Shown here in pieces: positions 47,637-57,649 of a DNA stretch of 64,000 bases. The first letter of the stretch is position 1. The number at the start of each line of letters is the position of its first letter. Source of the stretch: Crocinitomicaceae bacterium (GTDB lineage: Bacteria; Bacteroidota; Bacteroidia; Flavobacteriales_D; Crocinitomicaceae); contig JAURMI010000003.1 in assembly GCA_030830785.1 (NCBI GenBank), forward strand, positions 1-64,000, read 5' to 3'. The notes beneath the pieces are model-generated. The model was not told the origin of the DNA and did no database searches. It saw nothing but the letters and a program-made list of their open reading frames with translations. A program made the position numbers and the translations under genes.

Positions 47637-49796
47637 TTATAGCTCATCTAAAATATAATCATGAATCATATTGAATAAATGATTGCGGGTGTTGCCACCA
47701 TATATTCCATGATTTTTATTTGGATAAATAAACAAATCAAATTGCTTATTGGCTTTTACCAATGCACTGATCATTTCCATTGAATTTTGGTAATGAACAT
47801 TATCATCTGCTGCTCCATGGATTAAAAAATACTTGCCTTGAAGATCTGCTGCAAAATTTATAGGCGAATTATTATCGTATCCATCGGCATTTTCTTGTGG
47901 GGTTTGCATAAAGCGTTCTGTGTAAATATTATCATAAAATCTCCAATTGGTAACCGGAGCAACCGCAATCCCTACTCTGAACAGCCCCTTGCCTTTTGTC
48001 ATCGCTAAAGATGACATAAAACCACCATAGCTCCAGCCCATAATACCTAAACGATTGGCATCGACATCCGAACGCTTGGCAAATGCACGTGTTGCATCTA
48101 AAACATCTTCTAATTCTAATTTACCCAATTGTAAATAGGTTGACTTTTTAAAATCTGCTCCTCGGAATTGAGTTCCACGTGGGTCAATGCTCAATACCAT
48201 ATAACCATCTTGTGCCAGTAAATTGTGAAAGAAATAGTCATTGCCATCCCAGCTATCCAACACTTCATTGTGCCCAGGGCCACCATAAACATTTACAAAT
48301 ACAGGATATTTTTTAGTAGGGTTATAATTTTTAGGTAAAATTAACGATGCATTGAGTTGAGCATTGGGAGTTGCGATGGAAATAAATTTCTTTTCGCTTA
48401 AATTCTCTTTTTTCATCTTTTTAAGCAAGTCGGCATTATCTTCCAAAACGCTTACCAATTCTCCGTTGGCCTTTCTCAAAGAAAATACTGGAGTTGTATT
48501 GGCATTTGAATAATTGAGAATGAAATATTTCATTCCATTAAGAAATTCACCATTGTTATAACCTAACTCAGGGGTAAGGTTGGTTTTATTTTTACCATCT
48601 AAATCTATACAGTAAATAGACTTGTAAATTGCACCTGGTTCAGCAGAAGAATAATATATTACTCCTTTTTGTTCATCTAATCCCAAAAACTCAATTACAT
48701 CCCAATTTCCCGAAGTTATTGGCGTAGAGGTTCCATCCATTTCAATTCTATAAATATGATTAAAACCGCTTGACTCACTGGTTCTAATGATGGACTTACC
48801 ATCTTTCAAAATCAAAAGATTGTTATCTACATCTATGTAGGTATTGGAATTTTCCGTGAAGAACTTATTAATTGTAACTTGCTTTTGATTGGCATCAATC
48901 AACCAATAATTCAATTGATTTTGATGGCGATTTAATGTTTGAACAACCAATTGATTTGATTGAGAAGACCAATTTAATCTCGGTATATATTCAAATGAAT
49001 CGAGGCTAATTTCTTGAATTTTTGCATTGTCAACCTCCAACAAATTCAAGCTTACTTTGCTGTTAAGTTCGCCTGCCTTTGGATATTTGTATTTATATTG
49101 CTGTGGGTAAAGCTCACCATAAAGCGCCATTTGATATTCCGGCACTTGTCTTTCATCAAACTTTAAAAAAGCGATTAGCTTACTATCTGGCGACCAACAA
49201 TAGGCTTTGGTAATAGCGAATTCTTCTTCATAGACCCAATCTGTAGTTCCATTTATTATTTTTTTACGCTTTCCATCCTCGGTGAGTTTTTTTACCTTTC
49301 CTGTGGATAGTTCTTTAACAAAAAGGTCGTTTCCATGAATATAGGAAACCAATTTTCCATCAGGACTGTATTCAGCAAGGGTTTGTGGTGTATGATCGGC
49401 ATCTAAAGGAGCTAACTTTTTAGTTTGAAAATCGTACAAATAATATACTGCTTCAAAACTTCGGCGGTAAACAGAAGTTGGGTTTGTTATGAGTAGCACT
49501 TTCTGCTCATTTGAGTTAAATTCAAAACCGCTCACTTGGATAGGCTGGTTATTGTATTTCAAATCATCGTTAGAAACAAGTACCTCTGGGGTTTTCGTTG
49601 GGTCTTCTACATGGCCCTTAACTATATTTCCTTGGTCGTCGAAATCTACGTAATGCTGGCCATCTTGAAGCATCTGATATGAGCCAGCTCCGGCAGCTAT
49701 AAACTCATAGCTTTTCCAAATGCGCTCTACGTTAAGCGATTGCGCTATTGTTAATTGAGTTATTAATCCCAAAGAAAAAAGAAGAATGTATCGCAT
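47637..49796 (-). CDS. S9 family serine peptidase (dipeptidyl-peptidase IV-like)
   Basis: 719 residues from ATG 49796. A signal peptide (RYILLFSLGLITQLTIAQ) precedes an eight-bladed propeller of DPPIV type (YSPDGKLVSYIHGNDLFVK; ITKAYCWSPDSKLIAFLKFDE, with a Glu pair motif VYEEEF). The alpha/beta-hydrolase domain has Ser in IMGWSYGGFMSSLAM (about 587), Asp in HGAADDNVHYQNS and His in YPNKNHGIYGGNTRNH. The VYEEEF double Glu binds the peptide N-terminus in DPPIV, supporting Xaa-Pro dipeptidase activity in the periplasm or outer surface. An upstream TTG at 49838 lies beyond the TACATTTG promoter region and was rejected. Confidence 0.92.
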   Translation of the reverse strand: MRYILLFSLGLITQLTIAQSLNVERIWKSYEFIAAGAGSYQMLQDGQHYVDFDDQGNIVKGHVEDPTKTPEVLVSNDDLKYNNQPIQVSGFEFNSNEQKVLLITNPTSVYRRSFEAVYYLYDFQTKKLAPLDADHTPQTLAEYSPDGKLVSYIHGNDLFVKELSTGKVKKLTEDGKRKKIINGTTDWVYEEEFAITKAYCWSPDSKLIAFLKFDERQVPEYQMALYGELYPQQYKYKYPKAGELNSKVSLNLLEVDNAKIQEISLDSFEYIPRLNWSSQSNQLVVQTLNRHQNQLNYWLIDANQKQVTINKFFTENSNTYIDVDNNLLILKDGKSIIRTSESSGFNHIYRIEMDGTSTPITSGNWDVIEFLGLDEQKGVIYYSSAEPGAIYKSIYCIDLDGKNKTNLTPELGYNNGEFLNGMKYFILNYSNANTTPVFSLRKANGELVSVLEDNADLLKKMKKENLSEKKFISIATPNAQLNASLILPKNYNPTKKYPVFVNVYGGPGHNEVLDSWDGNDYFFHNLLAQDGYMVLSIDPRGTQFRGADFKKSTYLQLGKLELEDVLDATRAFAKRSDVDANRLGIMGWSYGGFMSSLAMTKGKGLFRVGIAVAPVTNWRFYDNIYTERFMQTPQENADGYDNNSPINFAADLQGKYFLIHGAADDNVHYQNSMEMISALVKANKQFDLFIYPNKNHGIYGGNTRNHLFNMIHDYILDEL

Positions 49797-49813
49797 TATA
49801 ATAATTTTAAGGC

Positions 49814-49821
49814 CAAATGTA
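49814..49821 (-). promoter_or_regulatory. -7 promoter element of the DPPIV-like gene
   Basis: TACATTTG on the minus strand, 17 nt upstream of ATG 49796, with a possible -33 TTG at 49843-49845. Confidence 0.6.
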
Positions 49822-49891
49822 CAATAATTAAACCACAAGGGCCAATGCTTTTTAATTCAAAAAATGATCAAAAAATGTAAGGTGAATGCTC

Positions 49892-49922
49892 TTGTATTAC
49901 TTTATTTAATTACGTAGATTTG
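49892..49922 (+). promoter_or_regulatory. Promoter of the nucleic-acid scavenging operon
   Basis: TTG at 49892-49894, a 20 nt spacer and TAGATTTG at 49915-49922 form a near-consensus Bacteroidota promoter, 35 nt upstream of ATG 49958. It is the only exact -7 match seen ahead of the next five genes and no terminator hairpin is apparent between them, so it probably drives all of 49958-57649. Confidence 0.7.
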
Positions 49923-49957
49923 TCAAAGATTAAACATAAGTTTTAAAATTTAAAAGC

Positions 49958-51022
49958 ATGATGAAATATACTATTCTCTTTTTATTATTAATTGGAAGTT
50001 TAAACCTTCACGCTCAAAATACCTGTAATGAACTTTTCATTTCGGAATACGTCGAAGGTTGGTCGAATAATAAGGCTTTAGAGATTTACAACCCAACAGA
50101 TAATCCGATAGACCTATCGGGATATTTTGTGAGTCGTTATTCGAATGGTGCAACAACAGCAACTGTTGCCAATTCAGTACAATTGACAGGCGTTGTTCCT
50201 CCTAAAGGAGTATATGTAGGTGTTATTGAAAAATTAGACTCAATGGGTACAGGACAAGAAGCTCCTGTTTGGGATTCACTTCAATATCGGGCAGATGGTT
50301 TTTACTGTGCAGATTACAACGTTTCAAACGCTTGGTATTGGAATGGTAATGATGCTGTTCTATTGGCCAAAGGAACACTTCCTGCAAGCCCTACGACAGT
50401 TATAAATGCTACTAATGTTTCTGGTTTTGCCATAATAGATGTATTTGGAAAAATTGGCGAAAATCCGGCCAATGAAACAGGTTCATCATCTGGAAATGAT
50501 GGTGCATGGTCCTCTCAATTTCCCTACAGCACCGGTTTAGGAGTGCTTATTACCAAAGATCATAGCATGATTAGAAAACCAGGGATTTTAAAAGGACAAA
50601 CAACTAACCCTTCTTTTTTTGATCCTCTACTTGAGTGGGATAGTATTCCACCAGTGGTTGTGCGTTTAAATGCAAATGGAGATACACTTTTTGGACAGAG
50701 TGGAAACCCAATCTTGGATGGAAATTGGACTTCTTTAGGAGTGCATGAATGCGATTGCAATTCAATTGGGCTTCATCAAGATATCAAAGCAGCGCCAAGT
50801 GTTTATCCTAACCCGAGTAATGGTGTAGTTCACGTAAAGACCCAAAATGAAATTCGCAAGATTCAAGTCGTTTCGGCACTTGGGCAGCAAATCAAAGAAA
50901 TAAATGTTTCAAGTTCTCAAGGGCAAGTTGATATAGATCTAAATAATTTGCACGGTGTTTATTTTCTTCGACTTTTACAATCTAATGGAGAGCAAACGCT
51001 ACATAAGGTAATTATTCGCTAA
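49958..51022 (+). CDS. T9SS-secreted lamin-tail-domain protein
   Basis: 354 residues. A signal peptide (to HAQ, about residue 20) precedes a lamin-tail domain: LFISEYVEGWSNNKALEIYN and NPIDLSGYFVSRYSNGA, then WYWNGNDAVLLAKG. A type A T9SS sorting domain follows at about 280-354 (SVYPNPSNGVVHV, GVYFLRLLQSNG). Lamin-tail domains commonly accompany secreted nucleases and may bind DNA or the matrix. Directly followed by the receptor gene without a gap (stop 51022, ATG 51023). Possible role: anchoring nuclease activity or DNA at the surface (inference). Confidence 0.82.
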   Translation: MMKYTILFLLLIGSLNLHAQNTCNELFISEYVEGWSNNKALEIYNPTDNPIDLSGYFVSRYSNGATTATVANSVQLTGVVPPKGVYVGVIEKLDSMGTGQEAPVWDSLQYRADGFYCADYNVSNAWYWNGNDAVLLAKGTLPASPTTVINATNVSGFAIIDVFGKIGENPANETGSSSGNDGAWSSQFPYSTGLGVLITKDHSMIRKPGILKGQTTNPSFFDPLLEWDSIPPVVVRLNANGDTLFGQSGNPILDGNWTSLGVHECDCNSIGLHQDIKAAPSVYPNPSNGVVHVKTQNEIRKIQVVSALGQQIKEINVSSSQGQVDIDLNNLHGVYFLRLLQSNGEQTLHKVIIR

Positions 51023-53761
51023 ATGTCGCGTTTAAGTCTTCTCTTTTTTATTTTTGTTGGCGCAACATTCGCTGCAATTGGTCAAAATAGCGGTACAATT
51101 TCAGGTATAGCACTCATGACACCAGGTGATATACCGGTTGCAGGTGCAAAAATAAGCCTCATAAAGGATAACCAAACCGTAAAGTTGACAGCCACCAACG
51201 ATGAAGGATTTTACACACTTGAAAATGTGCCTTTTGACCAATATTTGTTGTTATTCACCCTTCCTTTAACTGATACCGTAAGACACTTTATCGAACTAAA
51301 TCAGCCCAACTTAATACAAAATGTAGCAATTCGCCCAACACAAGAAGTTAGAGAAATTCGTGTAATTGGCAACTTAGTTCGCGGCCAAAATGTACCTGTG
51401 GCTGTCACAAAAATTGATACAAAAAAAATAACTGAGGAACTCGCCTCGAGAGATCTTCCGATGCTTTTAAATGGGACAGCAGGGGTTTATGCTACAACGC
51501 AAGGAGGAGGAGATGGCGATGCGAGAATTAATGTCCGAGGTTTTGACCAACGAAATGTCGGTGTAATGATCGATGGTGTGCCGGTAAATGACATGGAAAA
51601 TGGTGCTGTTTATTGGTCAAATTGGTTTGGATTGGATGCCATTACATCTCAAATGCAAGTTCAGCGTGGTTTGGGTGCAACAAAAATTGCTATGCCTTCC
51701 ATAGGTGGAACCATAAATATCATTACACAAGGTGTTGGCACAAAAAAAGGTGGGAGTTTTAAACAAGAATACGCCACTGGCAATTTTCTAAGGAGTACCC
51801 TTTCTTACAATACGGGTATGACCAAATCGGGTTGGGGACTTACCTTATCTGCTTCATACAAGCAAGGGCAAGGTTGGGTGGATGGTACACCCACTCAAGG
51901 ATTTTTTGGTTATACAAAAATATCTAAACGTCTTAACAATCATTTACTTACGCTTTCTGCTTTTGCGGCGCCACAACACCACGGGCAGCGCTCCTATAAC
52001 CAAGGAATTCAATATTGGGATTCCACAAGATCTCAGCAACTCGGCATCCCATTTGATTCAACCCTCATTCTCAACGACATGGGGATTCGTTACAACCAAC
52101 ATTGGGGCTATGTTACCAATTCAAGTGGCCAGCGAGAAATACTCAACGAAAGGGAAAACTTCTACAATAAACCGCAGATTACGCTCAAAGATTTTTGGGC
52201 AGTCAATGAAAAACTCGATATCTCAAATTTGGCCTACGTTTCTATTGGGCGCGGTGGCGGCACGAGTATTTTCAATTCTTCTGCTATTCTCCGCGACAGT
52301 AATTCCAACATCGATTGGGATCAAATGATTCAAGAAAATCAAGTGAACTCTCTATTCGGCACACCTAATATTGATCCAATTTATTCTCCAACAGAAATCA
52401 AAGCTAGTCAGATACTTTTGGCCAGTAGGAATAATCACTTCTGGGTAGGATACCTTGGCCAGTTCAATTATCAATATTCAAAGTCAACGTCTTTTTCTGG
52501 TGGTATTGATTTTCGCTACTATCAAGGAAGACACTATCAAGAAATCACCAATTTATTGGGTGCAGATTATTTTGTGAGCGCGGCAAATTTTAACGATCCC
52601 GACCCTATGCAACGCGTTGGAGATAAGATCGCTAAAAACACCTTTAATGCAGATAGAGACGGAGTGGTAACCTACGGTGGTTTATTTGGACAAGTGGAAC
52701 ATAATGGCGATCGCGTGAATTGGTTTTTCAATATGTCGAGTATTGTTAATGGTTATAAAGGAATAGATTATTTTCAAAGAAAATTGCTCGATTTAGGTGA
52801 TACAATCTTGCGCATTGGTGCACTTGATACCATTCAATATAACGGCCAAACATATGATGCCAATTCTACAGGTCTTAGTTATTATCAAACGCCATGGAAG
52901 TACATCCCAGGAATTACATTAAAAGGAGGTCTGAGTTACAAGCTCAATAAATTTCAAGATGTATACTGTAATTTAGGTTATTTAAACCGCACACCACAAT
53001 TTTCGAATGTCATCGACAATAATACCAATAGTTTCTTTGGTGAAATTGTAAACGAAATTATCTATGCAGCCGAAGGCGGTTATCATTACACGAACAAACA
53101 CTTCGGCATCAATTACAACGCCTATTTTACTAACTGGAAAAACAAGCCATTTCCCTATGGAGTAGCTGTGCCTGATCCCAATGATCCTACAGAATATATT
53201 CGCGTCAATATCAATGGTATGGATGCCATACATATGGGTAATGAATTAGATATTGCTTGGGAAATCGCGCCAAAAATATCTTTTGAATTCATGGTATCGG
53301 TAGGTAACTGGATTTGGAATTCGAGTAAAACGGTTTTCATTCCTCAGTATGACTCTCTGGAATTTACTTTTGATGCAAAAGGTGTGCATGTCGGTGATGC
53401 AGCACAAACGGCAATGTCCGCCTCATTTCGTTACGAACCATTCAAGCGAAGTTATTTAAAAATTCAAGGGCAATATTTTGACCGTTATTATGCCAATTTT
53501 GATCCTTTCTCTTTGCAAGGAGCCAATGGCGGCCGCGATTCCTGGATGATTCCATCTTACTCGCTTTTAAATTTATTTGGCGGTTATCGCTACAAGCAGT
53601 TTAATGCCGGTTTTGCGATCACCAATTTACTCAACAATTCTTTTATTTCGGATGCCATCAACAACGCCAATGGCATATACGATCAGTTCGATGCACGTTC
53701 TGCCACTGTGATGTTTGGTCAGGGCTTGCGTTTTAGTTTTAATTTAAGCATAAACTTTTAA
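51023..53761 (+). CDS. TonB-dependent outer-membrane receptor
   Basis: 912 residues. The signal peptide (to IGQ) precedes a CarboxypepD_reg-like Ig domain (about 25-110; ATNDEGFYTLENVPF). The plug domain has VRGFDQRNVGVMIDGVPVNDMENGAVYW and GLGATKIAMPSIGGTINIITQG. A 22-stranded barrel follows and ends FGQGLRFSFNLSINF. No SusD partner is adjacent, so it is not a classical SusC/D pair. Inferred to import a product of nucleic-acid breakdown because the genes on either side encode a lamin-tail protein and a nuclease plus a 5'-nucleotidase. Ligand unproven. Confidence 0.92.
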   Translation: MSRLSLLFFIFVGATFAAIGQNSGTISGIALMTPGDIPVAGAKISLIKDNQTVKLTATNDEGFYTLENVPFDQYLLLFTLPLTDTVRHFIELNQPNLIQNVAIRPTQEVREIRVIGNLVRGQNVPVAVTKIDTKKITEELASRDLPMLLNGTAGVYATTQGGGDGDARINVRGFDQRNVGVMIDGVPVNDMENGAVYWSNWFGLDAITSQMQVQRGLGATKIAMPSIGGTINIITQGVGTKKGGSFKQEYATGNFLRSTLSYNTGMTKSGWGLTLSASYKQGQGWVDGTPTQGFFGYTKISKRLNNHLLTLSAFAAPQHHGQRSYNQGIQYWDSTRSQQLGIPFDSTLILNDMGIRYNQHWGYVTNSSGQREILNERENFYNKPQITLKDFWAVNEKLDISNLAYVSIGRGGGTSIFNSSAILRDSNSNIDWDQMIQENQVNSLFGTPNIDPIYSPTEIKASQILLASRNNHFWVGYLGQFNYQYSKSTSFSGGIDFRYYQGRHYQEITNLLGADYFVSAANFNDPDPMQRVGDKIAKNTFNADRDGVVTYGGLFGQVEHNGDRVNWFFNMSSIVNGYKGIDYFQRKLLDLGDTILRIGALDTIQYNGQTYDANSTGLSYYQTPWKYIPGITLKGGLSYKLNKFQDVYCNLGYLNRTPQFSNVIDNNTNSFFGEIVNEIIYAAEGGYHYTNKHFGINYNAYFTNWKNKPFPYGVAVPDPNDPTEYIRVNINGMDAIHMGNELDIAWEIAPKISFEFMVSVGNWIWNSSKTVFIPQYDSLEFTFDAKGVHVGDAAQTAMSASFRYEPFKRSYLKIQGQYFDRYYANFDPFSLQGANGGRDSWMIPSYSLLNLFGGYRYKQFNAGFAITNLLNNSFISDAINNANGIYDQFDARSATVMFGQGLRFSFNLSINF

Positions 53762-53763
53762 TC

Positions 53764-56037
53764 ATGAGAAAACTTTTACCCTTACTAGGCATTATGACAT
53801 TTAGTCAAATGTTGATGGCCCAAACCATTGAACAAGTTCGTAATTTAGGTATTGGCCAAACCGTTACAGTAACTGGTGTAGTTACTAACGGCGCCGAACT
53901 GGGCCCGATCCGCTATATGCAAGATGGAACGGCGGGCATTGCATGCTACGGAACCAATTTAGCCAGTGTGCAGCAAGGCGATTCGATAACGGCTACAGGT
54001 GTTTTATTTGAATTTAGTGGTTTATTAGAGCTATCTCCTACCAATTCATTTATCAATCATGGGCAAGCTACTGTGCAGCCAACTCCACTTCAGATTCCAA
54101 TTGCAAGTGCTGGTGAAAGTTTAGAGGGGCAATTGGTGCGTCTAGACAACGTAACTTTTGTTCAAACGGGAAATTTTGCAACCGGAAACAGCACCGTACA
54201 GGTCAATGACGGTTCAAACACTTTGGATGTGCGCATCAATGGGAGCACCAATATAGATGGCTCTGCAATTCCTTCAGGCCCAGTAACAGTTATTGGTTTA
54301 ATGGGTCAATATAATGCGAATTATCAATTGGTTCCTAGAAGCTTGGCGGACATTTTCCCTTATGTGGCCCCTTCCGTAGAAATCAATGTGAAAATTAACG
54401 GTGTTGACGTACTTTCTGGTGATACCTATGTAGTTGGCACTACAGCTTCAACTGATATTACTATTGAAAACTACGGGGTGCAAAATTTAAATGTGAGTGG
54501 AGCTAGTTTCTCTGGCCCATCTGCTGCTGAATACTCCTGTAGTGCAAATGTTACTGTTGGGCCAACAAGCAGCCAAGTCATTTCTTTACAATTTACACCT
54601 GCAGGTATTGGCTCTAGATTGGCAACACTTTCTATTGCCAACAATGACAACGATGAAAACCCATACATCATTCATTTATACGGCATCGGGACCAATAATC
54701 TGGCAACAGAACCAATAAATCCGGAATCAAATTTCATAACTTGGCCTGTTGTTACCCCTTATAAATTGGTCTGTGAATTCACACCGTCGGGTGCAGAACA
54801 ATACTTGGTTTTATGGAAAGAGGGCGATGGCACATCGCCAGTTCAAGGCTATCCACTTGATGGAAACACCTACAAAAGAGGCGATGTGATTGGCAATGCC
54901 AAAGTGGCTTATGTTGGTCCTGGCACTTCTTTTTCGCCACGACACGTAGTGGCCAATACAGGATATATGTTTGCTATTTTCGCATTCAACGGGCCAGATG
55001 GATACCAAAATTACGACCAGACCATACCTGCTGGTGCTTACATTAACACCCTTGGCAGTCAAGTAGGAAATTACTACGATGGAATCTACTCAGGATCTGC
55101 AAGTTTTCTTGGAGACTTGAGTGCACTGATCAATCCACATACTTCGATTTCCTACTACAACTACCTCACGACAATGATGCACCAATACGAAGTACGCGAT
55201 ACAACAAACGGGCAGTCTTACGTAGAATGTGTGTATTCAGGAGAGCGCAAAGTATTCAATGACCCTTTTGCTTGGAGTGCCGTGGGCTATTCACGTGAAC
55301 ACACCTACTCTCATTCTTGGATGGCGACTTACCCATGTGACAACCCTGAAAAACCAGAATATAACGATCAACACAACCTTTGGCCAACCAACCTGCAGCA
55401 AGCCAACACGCCTCGATCTAACCTTCCTTTGATGGATATTGACGGAAATGTTGTTTTCAACTATCTGGGAGGTAGCGTAGGTTACAGCGGTAATCAATTG
55501 GTATATGAGCCACGCCCCGAACAAAAAGGCAACGCAGCTAGATCCATTTTCTATATGGCTACGTGCTACAATGGACAGTCTGGCTTAACTTGGGAATTAC
55601 CTGCCAACCAAAGCCAAGAGTCTTTGAAAACCTGGCATTTCAATGACGCGCCTGACAATTATGAAATTGCACGTCATGAATACGTATATGCGCTACAAGG
55701 AAACCGCAATCCCTTCATTGATTCGGCATACTTTGCCTGCCACATTAATTTTGCTAATATGACTTACCTCAATTGCGATATGGGTCTTGAGGAAAAATTA
55801 AGTAATAATTTTTCTGTTTTCCCTGTACCAGCCTCGCAAACCTTGTATGCACAAGTTAATGGGCTTGAAATTACAGGCTATCAAATCATCGACCTTCAAG
55901 GCCGACAAATTGGGGCAGCTCAAGATTTGAACCTACCTGTACTCACTTTGCCAATTAATGACATCAAGCCTGGTGTTTACTATTTAAAGGTGAATACCGC
56001 CTACGGGCAAGTACAACGCGAGTTCGTGATAGAATAA
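53764..56037 (+). CDS. T9SS-secreted endonuclease I-type nuclease with OB-fold domain
   Basis: 757 residues. Signal peptide, then an OB-fold segment (about 20-200: GQTVTVTGVVTNGAELGPI and IRYMQDGTAGIACYGTN) of the type found in extracellular nucleases. A choice-of-anchor D-like Ig module is at about 205-310 (ITIENYGVQNL, SIANNDNDENPYIIHLYG). The endonuclease I catalytic domain is at about 435-660, with REHTYSHSWM, YNDQHNLWPTNLQQANTPRSN and RSIFYMATCY. The EH...H / D..N..N..R.N arrangement matches the beta-beta-alpha-metal nucleases EndA/Dns. A type A sorting domain is at about 675-757. Predicted to cut extracellular DNA or RNA. Confidence 0.9.
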   Translation: MRKLLPLLGIMTFSQMLMAQTIEQVRNLGIGQTVTVTGVVTNGAELGPIRYMQDGTAGIACYGTNLASVQQGDSITATGVLFEFSGLLELSPTNSFINHGQATVQPTPLQIPIASAGESLEGQLVRLDNVTFVQTGNFATGNSTVQVNDGSNTLDVRINGSTNIDGSAIPSGPVTVIGLMGQYNANYQLVPRSLADIFPYVAPSVEINVKINGVDVLSGDTYVVGTTASTDITIENYGVQNLNVSGASFSGPSAAEYSCSANVTVGPTSSQVISLQFTPAGIGSRLATLSIANNDNDENPYIIHLYGIGTNNLATEPINPESNFITWPVVTPYKLVCEFTPSGAEQYLVLWKEGDGTSPVQGYPLDGNTYKRGDVIGNAKVAYVGPGTSFSPRHVVANTGYMFAIFAFNGPDGYQNYDQTIPAGAYINTLGSQVGNYYDGIYSGSASFLGDLSALINPHTSISYYNYLTTMMHQYEVRDTTNGQSYVECVYSGERKVFNDPFAWSAVGYSREHTYSHSWMATYPCDNPEKPEYNDQHNLWPTNLQQANTPRSNLPLMDIDGNVVFNYLGGSVGYSGNQLVYEPRPEQKGNAARSIFYMATCYNGQSGLTWELPANQSQESLKTWHFNDAPDNYEIARHEYVYALQGNRNPFIDSAYFACHINFANMTYLNCDMGLEEKLSNNFSVFPVPASQTLYAQVNGLEITGYQIIDLQGRQIGAAQDLNLPVLTLPINDIKPGVYYLKVNTAYGQVQREFVIE

Positions 56038-56735
56038 TGAAAATTAAATTTTGGTATATATTTTTTGGAGCAAGCCTAATGGCTTGCTCCACTTATTTAA
56101 ACCCAAATTTAAAGGTTCGGTCTTTGGTGATAGAAAACCAAAATTCTGATTCAGAAATTGCAGAACAACTCGCCCCCTATCAAGATTCATTGCACAGAGA
56201 ATTTGATCAAAATATTGCCTTTACACCTGTAGATTTAATTGTTCAACGGCCAAGTTCTAACCTTATGAATTGGTGTGCCGATGCTGTATATTATTCGCAA
56301 ATAGGCAAAACGCAATTAAACGAACCTGTTATTTGTTTACTTAATAAAGGAGGTATTAGAGCCTCATTTGGAGCAGGAAACCTCAGCTTGGCTGATTTTT
56401 ATAAGCTTATGCCCTTTGATAACCGTTTGGTTTGGGTGCATTTACCCGTTAGGAAAATTAAAGAGATTGAACATTATATTTCCCATAGTGGTGGCGAGCC
56501 CATGGCAAATTGCACATTTGAAAAAGACCAATTGCATATTGTAGGGCTACTTCCAGAACACCAATTTATTTGGGTGCTTACTGCAGATTTTTTAGCAAAT
56601 GGTGGCGACCAAATGAACTTCTTCTTGAATGAGGAAAAAAAAGAAACCAATATTTTGTTGCGAGATATTTTTATCCAAACTGCAAAACAACAAGGCAAGT
56701 TAATAATAGATCAAAATCAAAGGCATTATCCATGA
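56037..56735 (+). CDS. 5'-nucleotidase C-terminal (substrate-binding) domain lipoprotein
   Basis: 232 residues with lipobox YIFFGASLMAC. The mature protein corresponds to the C-terminal domain of UshA-type 5'-nucleotidases: NLMNWCADAVYY, CLLNKGGIRASFGAGNLSLADFY, LMPFDNRLVWVHLPVRKIKEI and LTADFLANGGDQMNFF (the substrate-contacting GGD loop). One-base overlap with the nuclease gene and 4 bp overlap with the metallophosphatase gene. The catalytic metal site is in the next gene, so the enzyme is encoded in two parts in reverse order. Confidence 0.88.
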   Translation: MKIKFWYIFFGASLMACSTYLNPNLKVRSLVIENQNSDSEIAEQLAPYQDSLHREFDQNIAFTPVDLIVQRPSSNLMNWCADAVYYSQIGKTQLNEPVICLLNKGGIRASFGAGNLSLADFYKLMPFDNRLVWVHLPVRKIKEIEHYISHSGGEPMANCTFEKDQLHIVGLLPEHQFIWVLTADFLANGGDQMNFFLNEEKKETNILLRDIFIQTAKQQGKLIIDQNQRHYP

Positions 56736-57649
56736 AATTAAGCAGAAGAAAGCTTTTAAAAAGAACTGGGTTGCTTTCCTTAGCGATTCTAATTCCTAAA
56801 TGGTTGGGTGCATTTTCTAGTCAGAAGAGGATTGATAAGTTGGTCATTCTACATACCAATGACACCCACTCTCATATCGATCCACACCCTGCTAATCACA
56901 ACAAGTACCCCAATCAGGGAGGAATTCTAGCACGGGCAGGGCTAATCGAGCAATACAGACGAGAAAATGAACATGTTTTATTGCTGGATTCAGGAGATTT
57001 TTTTCAAGGCACACCCTACTTTAATCGCTATCATGGTGTTTTGGAGATGAAATTAATGAGCGCGTTGCAATACGACGTGGCTACATTAGGGAATCATGAT
57101 TTTGACATTGGAATAGATGGTTTTCTAAATGCAAAAAAACATGCCTCCTTCAAATTTGTAAATGCCAATTACGATTTTACCAACACTGCATTGAACGGTC
57201 AAATCGATCCTTATCATATTATCGAAAAAGGCCCTTTTAGGGTTGGTATTTTTGGATTAGGTGTTGAACTAAATGGTTTGGTTCCAGCAGCTAATTACGC
57301 TGGTATGCAAATTAATGACCCTTACAAAAGTGCACAAGAAATTGTTCTTGAACTACAAAATCAAAAATGTAATTACATCGTTTGTTTATCACATTTAGGA
57401 TATGAATATAAAGATGAACAAATCCATAGTGATATTAGACTAGCCCAAGAAGTTTCGGGTATTGATATTATTTTAGGCGGACATACACACACCTTTTTAG
57501 ACGCACCAACAGAAGTCCAAAATCCTCTTGGTAAATCGGTATGGATTCATCAAGTAGGTTGGGCAGGAGTAAGATTAGGTGTAATAGAAATTGAAGGAAG
57601 AAAATTGAATTTCTTTCAAAGGAAGATTGTCTCCAAGGCAAGTAGCTAA
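56732..57649 (+). CDS. 5'-nucleotidase N-terminal metallophosphatase domain, Tat-type signal
   Basis: 305 residues. A twin-arginine signal (SRRKLLKRTGLLSLAILIP) leads to a calcineurin-type metallophosphoesterase: HTNDTHSHIDP, LLDSGDFFQGTPYF, TLGNHDFDIG (about residue 120), SHLGYEYK and ILGGHTHTFLD. These supply all the dimetal ligands. It ends after the catalytic domain, with the substrate domain in the upstream gene. Predicted to release phosphate from 5'-nucleotides in the periplasm. The TAG stop is followed at once by the gltX promoter region. Confidence 0.9.
   Translation: MKLSRRKLLKRTGLLSLAILIPKWLGAFSSQKRIDKLVILHTNDTHSHIDPHPANHNKYPNQGGILARAGLIEQYRRENEHVLLLDSGDFFQGTPYFNRYHGVLEMKLMSALQYDVATLGNHDFDIGIDGFLNAKKHASFKFVNANYDFTNTALNGQIDPYHIIEKGPFRVGIFGLGVELNGLVPAANYAGMQINDPYKSAQEIVLELQNQKCNYIVCLSHLGYEYKDEQIHSDIRLAQEVSGIDIILGGHTHTFLDAPTEVQNPLGKSVWIHQVGWAGVRLGVIEIEGRKLNFFQRKIVSKASS

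Follow-up and report, generated by a model that had tools for sequence, protein, structure and literature searches.

A five-gene operon around a TonB-dependent receptor as a probable DNA importer in Crocinitomicaceae

Introduction

How do Bacteroidota such as Riemerella move DNA over the outer membrane? In R. anatipestifer, once an outer-membrane protein with a CarboxypepD_reg domain or its operon partner (DUF5689 and DUF5017) is deleted, transformation falls from 5.4e-5 to an undetectable level (limit ~4e-10; PMC8459023). The same work found no pilus homologues in Riemerella and offered a receptor model for DNA entry, which its authors called speculative; F. johnsoniae has homologues, yet was not transformable under the conditions used (PMC8459023). 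Riemerella mutants in tonBA and tonBB transform less, with the tonBA mutant showing no iron defect (PMC8383284).

The operon described herein raises this question anew. It is located in a stretch of 64,000 nucleotides (the window; contig JAURMI010000003.1, positions 1–64,000) from a member of the Crocinitomicaceae and was originally predicted to scavenge extracellular nucleic acids. A literature search that covered few subscription papers or preprints returned no paper on the operon itself. Does its receptor serve nutrition, or does it form a gate for DNA?

Architecture of the operon

Five ORFs on one strand make up the operon, with junctions 1/2, 2/3, 3/4, and 4/5 of 0, +2, −1, and −4 bp; gltX starts with its ATG 45 bp downstream of gene 5 (Table 1). 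The parts list and the 0–4 bp junctions of the original prediction are borne out by the ORFs and domain searches. So is a receptor without SusD, as no SusD domain was found among the five operon proteins at E values up to 0.1. Gene 2 combines a TonB plug with a CarboxypepD_reg domain, the latter scoring under its cut-off. In gene 3, the choice-of-anchor D/ASH-like domain scores just under its cut-off, and the T9SS sorting domain lies just under the Pfam but over the NCBIfam cut-off. The lipobox Cys of gene 4 is invariant in 10 aligned sequences, and 5_nucleotid_C is its sole domain; gene 5 has a twin-arginine start and Metallophos as its sole domain. These two proteins had been taken for a 5′-nucleotidase C-domain lipoprotein and a Tat-type metallophosphatase, which is accurate domain by domain, but together they represent one 5′-nucleotidase split over two genes. 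Gene 4 keeps the substrate-domain motifs N-x-GG-[IL]-R and T-x-D-[YF]-L, and the metal-site motifs of gene 5 are present in 39–40 of 40 ORFs.

Table 1. Features of the operon and its upstream region (window coordinates).
Feature	Position	Strand	Description	Evidence
Short intergenic region	49839..49957		Position of the leader RNA in most family loci; window without leader RNA	
Possible promoter TTG-N20-TAGATTTG	49892..49922	+	String match; pattern at chance level	
Gene 1 (P0001)	49958..51022	+	Secreted lamin-tail-domain (LTD) protein with T9SS sorting domain, 354 aa	PF00932 E 1.3e-13; PF18962 E 3.4e-12
Gene 2 (P0002)	51023..53761	+	TonB-dependent receptor, clade A1, 912 aa, without SusD partner	Plug E 5.4e-14; tree
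Gene 3 (P0003)	53764..56037	+	T9SS protein with DUF5689 (OB-like), choice-of-anchor D/ASH-like, Endonuclease I, and sorting domains, 757 aa	Endonuclease_1 E 5.8e-22; match to endonuclease I 1oup
Gene 4 (P0004)	56037..56735	+	Lipoprotein; C-terminal half alone of a UshA-type 5′-nucleotidase, 232 aa	Aligns to 3ivd residues 277–408
11-bp hairpin	56066..56091	+	Strongest terminator-like site; inside gene 4 start (signal-peptide codons); kept in most relatives folded	
Gene 5 (P0005)	56732..57649	+	Twin-arginine metallophosphatase; N-terminal (metal-site) half of a UshA-type 5′-nucleotidase, 305 aa	Aligns to 2z1a (5′-nucleotidase) residues 29–286

Conservation of the A1 operon

In a phylogenetic tree, the receptor of the window belongs to a clade termed A1 (54 sequences, support 0.953), from which a second clade, A2, is separate (38 sequences, support 1.0). 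A1 groups with other receptors of unassigned role (X) rather than with A2; hence, DNA import shared by A1 and A2 would require an ancestral trait or convergence. By hhalign, A1 and A2 align over their full length with an E value of 1.5e-83, this receptor pair alone being compared. Among solved structures, the A1 receptor matches other receptors in their N-terminal and plug parts only, and the A2 receptor has no match.

The A1 clade was followed through 61 loci. At all 58 readable ones, an LTD gene lies upstream of the receptor and a nuclease gene downstream, being Endonuclease I in 47 and an unrelated PLD type in 11. Among these loci are 23 that were picked on the receptor alone (L105, L106, L110, and L112–L131), and all 23 have the complete trio. 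Within the family of the window, both downstream nucleotidase genes, in their reversed order, are kept in 40 of 42 readable A1 loci, so that the gene order for which the original prediction suggested a search does recur in relatives. The five genes form one conserved unit. The REH motif is present in 47/47 Endonuclease I ORFs and the HNL-type motif in 40/47; an EEP nuclease gene is absent at the window locus and at 60 of the 61 A1 loci and present in L051. Because two unrelated phosphodiesterase folds fill the nuclease slot, nucleic acid is the likely substrate.

Receptors in unrelated contexts without a nuclease had been named as evidence against a joint pathway. They occur among most of the distant paralogues examined but not in the orthologous clade. 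Lower-scoring receptors outside the order were rejected as orthologues, with LTD or PLD genes near 0 of 20 examined, and L084, which counted as A1 by score alone, was rejected because tree and surroundings put it among other receptors. Two of these 20 receptors have noteworthy neighbors: in L086, the second gene downstream encodes an Endonuclease I lipoprotein, and in L072, the upstream side encodes a T9SS protein that has DUF5689-like parts. A survey of 296 genomes from the phylum finds A2 in 45 and trio-type A1 in 3; most therefore have neither at these thresholds.

Of 47 family genomes, 44 encode the split nucleotidase, which adjoins either receptor type. It lies at most 4 kb from A1 or A2 in 42 of the 44, the other two carrying it on separate contigs, and two genomes without A1 or A2 are also without it. 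Outside the family, the pair is found at 0 of 16 readable A1 loci, and dephosphorylation is therefore an add-on rather than part of the core.

Mutual exclusion and same-slot replacement of A1 and A2

The A2 cassette consists of a receptor, a DUF5689 protein, and usually an EEP nuclease. Among 150 genomes from the order, A1 is present in 98 (the genome of the window counted) and A2 in 42, while 10 have neither and none has both. The thresholds for these receptor classes were chosen after score gaps had been seen; four A1 assignments derive from partial matches, and eleven genomes were dropped from A1 because their best match is an X-type receptor or a weaker one (G040, G053, G064, G090, G100, G109, G120, G121, G136, G142, and G178). 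Fisher's exact test gives 5e-28 for the exclusion, a value inflated by kinship. Calculated within families, leaving out two genomes of unknown family, 8.5 overlaps are expected and the chance of observing zero is 1.9e-10.

Locus surroundings were examined for 40 of the 98 A1 and 20 of the 42 A2 genomes. With profiles made for this analysis, all 20 examined A2 loci of the order contain an EEP nuclease and a DUF5689-type gene; Pfam confirms EEP in 9/9 scanned. In three genera of three families, the A1 and A2 cassettes share one chromosomal slot. The flanking genes of L051 and L231 are 87–96% identical on both sides. For L116 and L226, identities amount to 84% for gltA, 69% for DPP, and 44% and 64% for the nucleotidase halves, and in the pair L131/L233 the PLD nuclease gene is retained (54%). 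Mixed cassettes exist as well—L235 joins an A2 receptor with a T9SS Endonuclease I, and L233 has the PLD nuclease behind its A2 receptor.

By domain description and adjacency, as opposed to sequence, the A2 cassette fits the description of the Riemerella transformation pair; Riemerella itself is absent among the matches listed (at least 80 loci of the A2 search, mostly MAGs). Linkage of A2 to comEC and recA, suggested by the locus numbers in Riemerella, was rejected, as neither is near eight A2 loci: ComEC was not found there by BLAST nor RecA by a crude string test, and a Pfam scan of ten neighbors at two of the eight likewise returned neither.

Regulatory elements

A near-consensus promoter had been predicted in front of gene 1. 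Its string is present, but the pattern TTG-N20-TANNTTTG occurs twice in the window against 2.25 matches expected by chance, and in 15 of 16 relatives (160 bases examined) TANNTTTG lies further upstream, at −90 to −158, compared with −43 for the window copy. It is a plausible promoter that is not significant alone, and at this chance-level frequency the motif was rejected as evidence for the operon. Neither sigma-70-type promoters nor terminator-like sites (12, versus 11.1 in shuffles) exceed shuffle level in this region.

Of 40 family loci, 29 carry a covarying structured leader RNA in front of the operon. This RNA was not found in the window, nor at the wider A2 loci, with the exception of two of genus g13. 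Searches against Rfam returned no match for the leader (8 loci at the gathering threshold; one leader at E up to 1), and two Rfam matches in the window (49000–51000) were set aside as being far under their cut-offs. The leader would offer a regulatory handle on the timing of uptake.

Function of the operon

Since the same slot holds, in other genomes, a gate resembling one needed for transformation, the operon probably imports DNA. The best reading is a DNA importer of the outer membrane that depends on TonB and most likely serves natural transformation, with nucleotide recovery on the side; this reading is assigned a probability of roughly two in three. In this scheme, DNA would be held at the surface by the LTD protein, exported through the T9SS, together with the OB-like DUF5689 part of gene 3, and the Endonuclease I domain, whose motif is intact, would nick or cut it to create an entry end. 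The A1 receptor, energized by TonB, would then pass the DNA over the outer membrane, as suggested by its exchangeability with A2 and by the genetics of R. anatipestifer. Inner-membrane transport and recombination would fall to ComEC and DprA, and the split 5′-nucleotidase pair would dephosphorylate nucleotides from degraded DNA. ComEC, DprA, and DUF1343 are encoded in the genome of the window; however, control genomes have ComEC in 10/14 and DprA in 11/14, so that the presence of these two proves little. The surface proteins are acidic (pI 4.4 for the LTD protein and 4.2 for the OB part), which does not favor simple electrostatic DNA binding, and a surface nuclease could equally destroy DNA. 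The grouping of A1 with X receptors, the majority of phylum genomes having neither receptor at the thresholds used, and the non-transformable F. johnsoniae likewise speak against this reading.

The original prediction of nutrient scavenging had its parts right. In a pure form, a surface endonuclease would produce fragments, the receptor would import oligonucleotides, and the split nucleotidase would free phosphate and nucleosides, with no role in transformation. This draws on the nuclease and nucleotidase sharing one operon, as well as on the frequency of the nucleotidase pair in the family and its position beside the receptor. It is nevertheless the weaker reading and, as the main role, unlikely: a cassette fitting the Riemerella transformation genes excludes the operon, without a single co-occurrence in the 150 genomes, and replaces it in the same slot, and A1 loci outside the family do without the nucleotidase pair. 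The T9SS sorting domains of both surface proteins would also suit clearance of biofilm or extracellular DNA outside the cell, with the receptor importing something else and merely being co-regulated. This is very unlikely, given that the receptor gene sits between both surface genes wherever a locus is fully readable, and that cassette swaps include the receptor. Slightly more improbable still is a common small ligand, such as a metal or vitamin, imported by A1 and A2 and required for competence, with nucleases that release phosphate and have no part in DNA entry. In its favor, an adjoining nuclease is lacking in most of the X relatives examined, the best NCBIfam matches of the window receptor are BtuB-like plugs, and the effects of TonB in Riemerella may be nutritional (PMC8383284); against this, enzymes acting on nucleic acids or nucleotides recur next to the receptors, and they are of four kinds (Endonuclease I, PLD, EEP, and split 5′-nucleotidase).

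If the operon does import DNA, uptake should also be found across a large set of relatives. Independent comparative support for a TonB-driven DNA gate comes from a second receptor cassette, of a different clade, which replaces the first in place and has a nuclease wherever readable. At somewhat less than even odds, a wider picture can be drawn, in which Bacteroidota that have no type IV pili take in transforming DNA via TonB-dependent receptors. These receptors would fall into two classes, with separate DNA-holding proteins at the surface and, in each case, one of three unrelated nucleases; whole cassettes would be swapped at one fixed locus, owing perhaps to phage pressure or DNA preference, and a new structured leader RNA would control the operon in one family.

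Comparison with known systems

SusC/SusD and phosphate-linked SusCD-like systems combine a TonB-dependent receptor and a surface hydrolase in one operon, as is the case here, but they possess a SusD-type lipoprotein, whereas the operon of the window has none. Gene 3 shares the Endonuclease_1 domain and REH/HNL-type motifs with Endonuclease I (Vibrio Vvn, EndA); in the window, however, the domain is embedded in a 757-aa T9SS cargo protein with DUF5689 and Ig-like domains. Metal-site motifs (gene 5) and substrate-domain motifs (gene 4) are common to UshA and ecto-5′-nucleotidase. UshA is one polypeptide with the N-half preceding the C-half, whereas the window encodes two proteins, the C-half first, one being a lipoprotein and the other having a Tat-type start. 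The extracellular exonuclease ExeM shows N-terminal LTD similarity far under the family cut-off; it unites LTD and nuclease in one protein, whereas these are two genes in the window with the receptor in between.

The closest counterpart is the Riemerella pair RA0C_RS04915 (outer-membrane protein) and RA0C_RS04920 (DUF5689 and DUF5017). The window differs from it by a receptor of the A1 instead of the A2 clade—the Riemerella protein being assigned to A2 by inference—by Endonuclease I instead of DUF5017 in gene 3, by a separate LTD gene and a split nucleotidase, and by a locus without EEP nuclease. Common to both is a CarboxypepD_reg receptor followed, within one operon, by a DUF5689 surface protein; TonB is involved in Riemerella, and ComEC, DprA, and DUF1343 in the genome of the window extend the likeness.

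Architecture of the five-gene operon

The operon in the window consists of five genes on one strand, separated by gaps of 0, +2, −1, and −4 bp. Hence, the compact arrangement described in the original prediction is borne out, and its parts list (a lamin-tail domain [LTD] protein, TonB receptor, Endonuclease I, 5′-nucleotidase C-domain, and metallophosphatase) is fully recovered by domain analysis. The promoter placed in front of these genes exists as a string, but its pattern occurs at chance frequency (2 seen versus 2.25 expected). Against solved structures, gene 4 matches nucleotidases (3ivd and 2z1a) over their C-half only, and the matches of gene 5 (2z1a, UshA, and relatives) are confined to the N-half; a 5′-nucleotidase is, thus, split in two with its halves in reversed order. 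The genome of the window comprises 26 contigs (1.9 Mb, 83% complete).

The signal-peptide codons of gene 4 contain an 11-bp hairpin. Among 13 relatives folded, it is kept in 10 loci of the genus and, with a changed base pair, in L125 from another genus; it is missing in L057, and the stretch folded for L115 may fall short of it. It is possibly an attenuator or a processing site between the nuclease and nucleotidase genes.

Features of the operon and related loci (L, locus; A1 and A2, receptor types; T9SS, type IX secretion)
Feature	Location	Description	Basis
Operon	window 49958-57649	five genes
Gene 1		secreted LTD protein with T9SS sorting domain	domain analysis
Gene 2		TonB-dependent receptor	domain analysis
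Gene 3		T9SS protein with DUF5689, choice-of-anchor D/ASH-like domain, and Endonuclease I	domain analysis
Gene 4		lipoprotein, C-terminal domain of 5′-nucleotidase only	domain analysis
Gene 5		metallophosphatase, Tat-type start	domain analysis
Gene 4 hairpin	window 56066-56091	11 bp
Leader RNA, A1	about 20-160 bases upstream of gene 1	L033, L037, L039, L040, and 25 further loci	model
Leader RNA, A2	L231:10209-10273; L232:6297-6359		model
LTD-DUF5689 fusion	L132:7868-9895	behind A2 receptor

Conservation of the A1 unit

The receptor of the window belongs to a clade termed A1. Of 61 A1 loci, three are cut off on the upstream and three on the downstream side. In all 58 readable loci, the LTD gene lies directly upstream of the receptor; the nuclease gene immediately follows the receptor, likewise in 58 of 58, a count that is biased for the 38 loci chosen by similarity to gene 3. 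All 23 loci chosen on the receptor alone carry this trio. The nuclease slot holds Endonuclease I in 47 loci and a PLD-type enzyme in 11. As one slot takes two unrelated phosphodiesterase folds, these sequences point to nucleic acid as the substrate. DUF5689 was not found by Pfam in L059, L060, and L061 or by our own profile in L120 and L122-L126, all of which retain the nuclease. Catalytic motifs are mostly kept: REH in 47/47 and an HNL-type motif in 40/47 Endonuclease I ORFs, HxKxxxxD in all 13 PLD ORFs, some partial (two copies in 10), and the metallophosphatase motifs in 39 to 40 of 40 ORFs.

The nucleotidase pair (genes 4 and 5) is confined more narrowly. Within f1, the family of the window, it lies downstream of the A1 trio in 40 of 42 readable loci, the exceptions being one locus with gene 4 only and one with neither half; outside f1, it is found in 0 of 16 readable loci. 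It likewise adjoins the A2 receptor, the other type, in 5/5 loci of f1 and 0/15 of other families, which have a more diverged homologue at another genomic location. Altogether, 44 of 47 f1 genomes contain the pair, at most 4 kb from the receptor in 42 and on another contig in two; in G177, the remaining f1 genome of interest here, the receptor sits at a contig end. Two nearly complete f1 genomes (G061 and G175) are devoid of A1, A2, and the split nucleotidase alike. Genus members L048 and L038 have an intact trio without the metallophosphatase half and the whole pair, respectively.

A structured leader RNA

A 62-position element precedes gene 1 in 29 of the 40 f1 loci with a readable upstream side. 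It is a new structured RNA with strong covariation, formed by a 10-bp outer stem, UCCUUGA opposite GAAACC, and a short inner stem. In an alignment of 16 sequences, compensatory changes occur at 9 of 10 outer pairs, and 91.8% of cells pair across both stems (40-53% when the alignment is slid); covariation is 0.548 versus 0.190 in shuffles, matched by 0 of 500. Searching 100 sources (1.58 Mb) with an E cut-off of 1 gave 31 matches, every one just upstream of a receptor operon. Sixteen of these built the model; the 15 new ones comprise 13 A1 loci and two g13 loci of the A2 type (E 0.011 and 0.12). The model search found no leader in the window or in any other A2 locus searched, and a weak one (E 0.04) in L032, the closest relative of the window. 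No Rfam family matches (gathering threshold on eight loci; E up to 1 on one leader).

Relation of A1 and A2 receptors

Both receptor profiles were run against one set of 150 genomes of the order, and the best five candidates per genome were scored. A1 was called at ≥690 bits, plus four high-density partial hits (G155, G163, G171, and G173), and A2 at ≥350 bits. A1 occurs in 98 genomes (own genome included), A2 in 42, neither in 10, and both in none, with surroundings inspected for 40 of the A1 and 20 of the A2 genomes and the remainder assigned by score. Fisher's test yields 5e-28, a value inflated by kinship. With family membership fixed, for the five families holding both types and leaving out two genomes of unknown family, 8.5 double genomes are expected, and the probability of finding none is 1.9e-10.

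Three genera in the sample have both types, in each case in the same slot. In genus g13, L051 (A1) and L231 (A2) share flanking genes at 87-96% identity, three to one side and six to the other, EEP nuclease among them; the receptor sets in between differ and are oppositely oriented. In g21, L116 (A1) and L226 (A2) have in common gltA (84%), DPP (69%), and the two halves of the nucleotidase (44% and 64%), all of them neighbors in the window as well; L226 additionally contains EEP and one further T9SS gene. In g36, the PLD nuclease gene (54%) is common to L131 and L233, as are genes to either side. In L235, a T9SS Endonuclease I adjoins an A2 cassette. This trading of parts, as read from gene content, argues for one common job.

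In a tree of 134 receptor sequences, A1 and A2 form separate clades of 54 members (window included; support 0.953) and 38 members (support 1.0), respectively; further receptors outside both, termed X, join A1 before A2 does (0.861). This branching speaks against simply tracing DNA import by A1 and A2 to a common ancestor and is the main structural objection to that reading. Most X receptors examined have no nuclease alongside; an exception is L086, with an Endonuclease I gene two genes from the receptor. In L100, L102, and L107, the receptor adjoins a T9SS protein, part of which weakly resembles DUF5689. In L085, L086, L087, and L077, the gene after the receptor encodes a lipoprotein-like protein (about 380-550 aa), after which L086 encodes an Endonuclease I lipoprotein.

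Proposed function and comparison with Riemerella

The original prediction of nucleic acid scavenging is partly upheld: the gene unit and its nuclease and nucleotidase parts stand, and the nutrient role ranks below DNA import. The better reading of the gene content is that the operon encodes a TonB-dependent DNA importer, a counterpart of, and interchangeable with, the transformation receptor of the Riemerella type. Herein, the LTD and OB-like parts would most likely capture DNA at the surface, the nuclease would nick it, and the receptor would pass it inward, driven by TonB, for ComEC and DprA to take over; the nucleotidase pair would salvage phosphate and nucleosides. ComEC, DprA, and DUF1343 are all present in the genome of the window. 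PMC4486849 discusses LTD as a domain associated with DNA in secreted DNases. The surface proteins of the operon are acidic, which disfavors simple electrostatic capture.

Two Riemerella anatipestifer proteins encoded in one operon, an outer-membrane protein with CarboxypepD_reg and a partner with DUF5689 and DUF5017, are described in PMC8459023 as essential for natural transformation; by domain description and adjacency, the pair would belong to A2. Among the listed matches (80 loci, named records), A2 is followed by a DUF5689-type gene in 71 of 76 readable loci and has EEP nearby in 58 of 74. Among 296 genomes sampled across the phylum, 45 have A2 and three have trio-type A1, all three from the order of the window. 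In L132, LTD is fused into the DUF5689 protein; the window has separate genes. DUF5689 was found in 12 of 15 genomes of two other families, behind a receptor in 11 of 12 (directly or one short ORF away), with a divergent EEP nuclease (PF19580) at 10 of these 11 loci. At L138, no EEP nuclease was seen at the receptor-DUF5689 locus, which, with its DUF5689 and DUF5017 protein and CarboxypepD_reg-type receptor, resembles the Riemerella pair as described.
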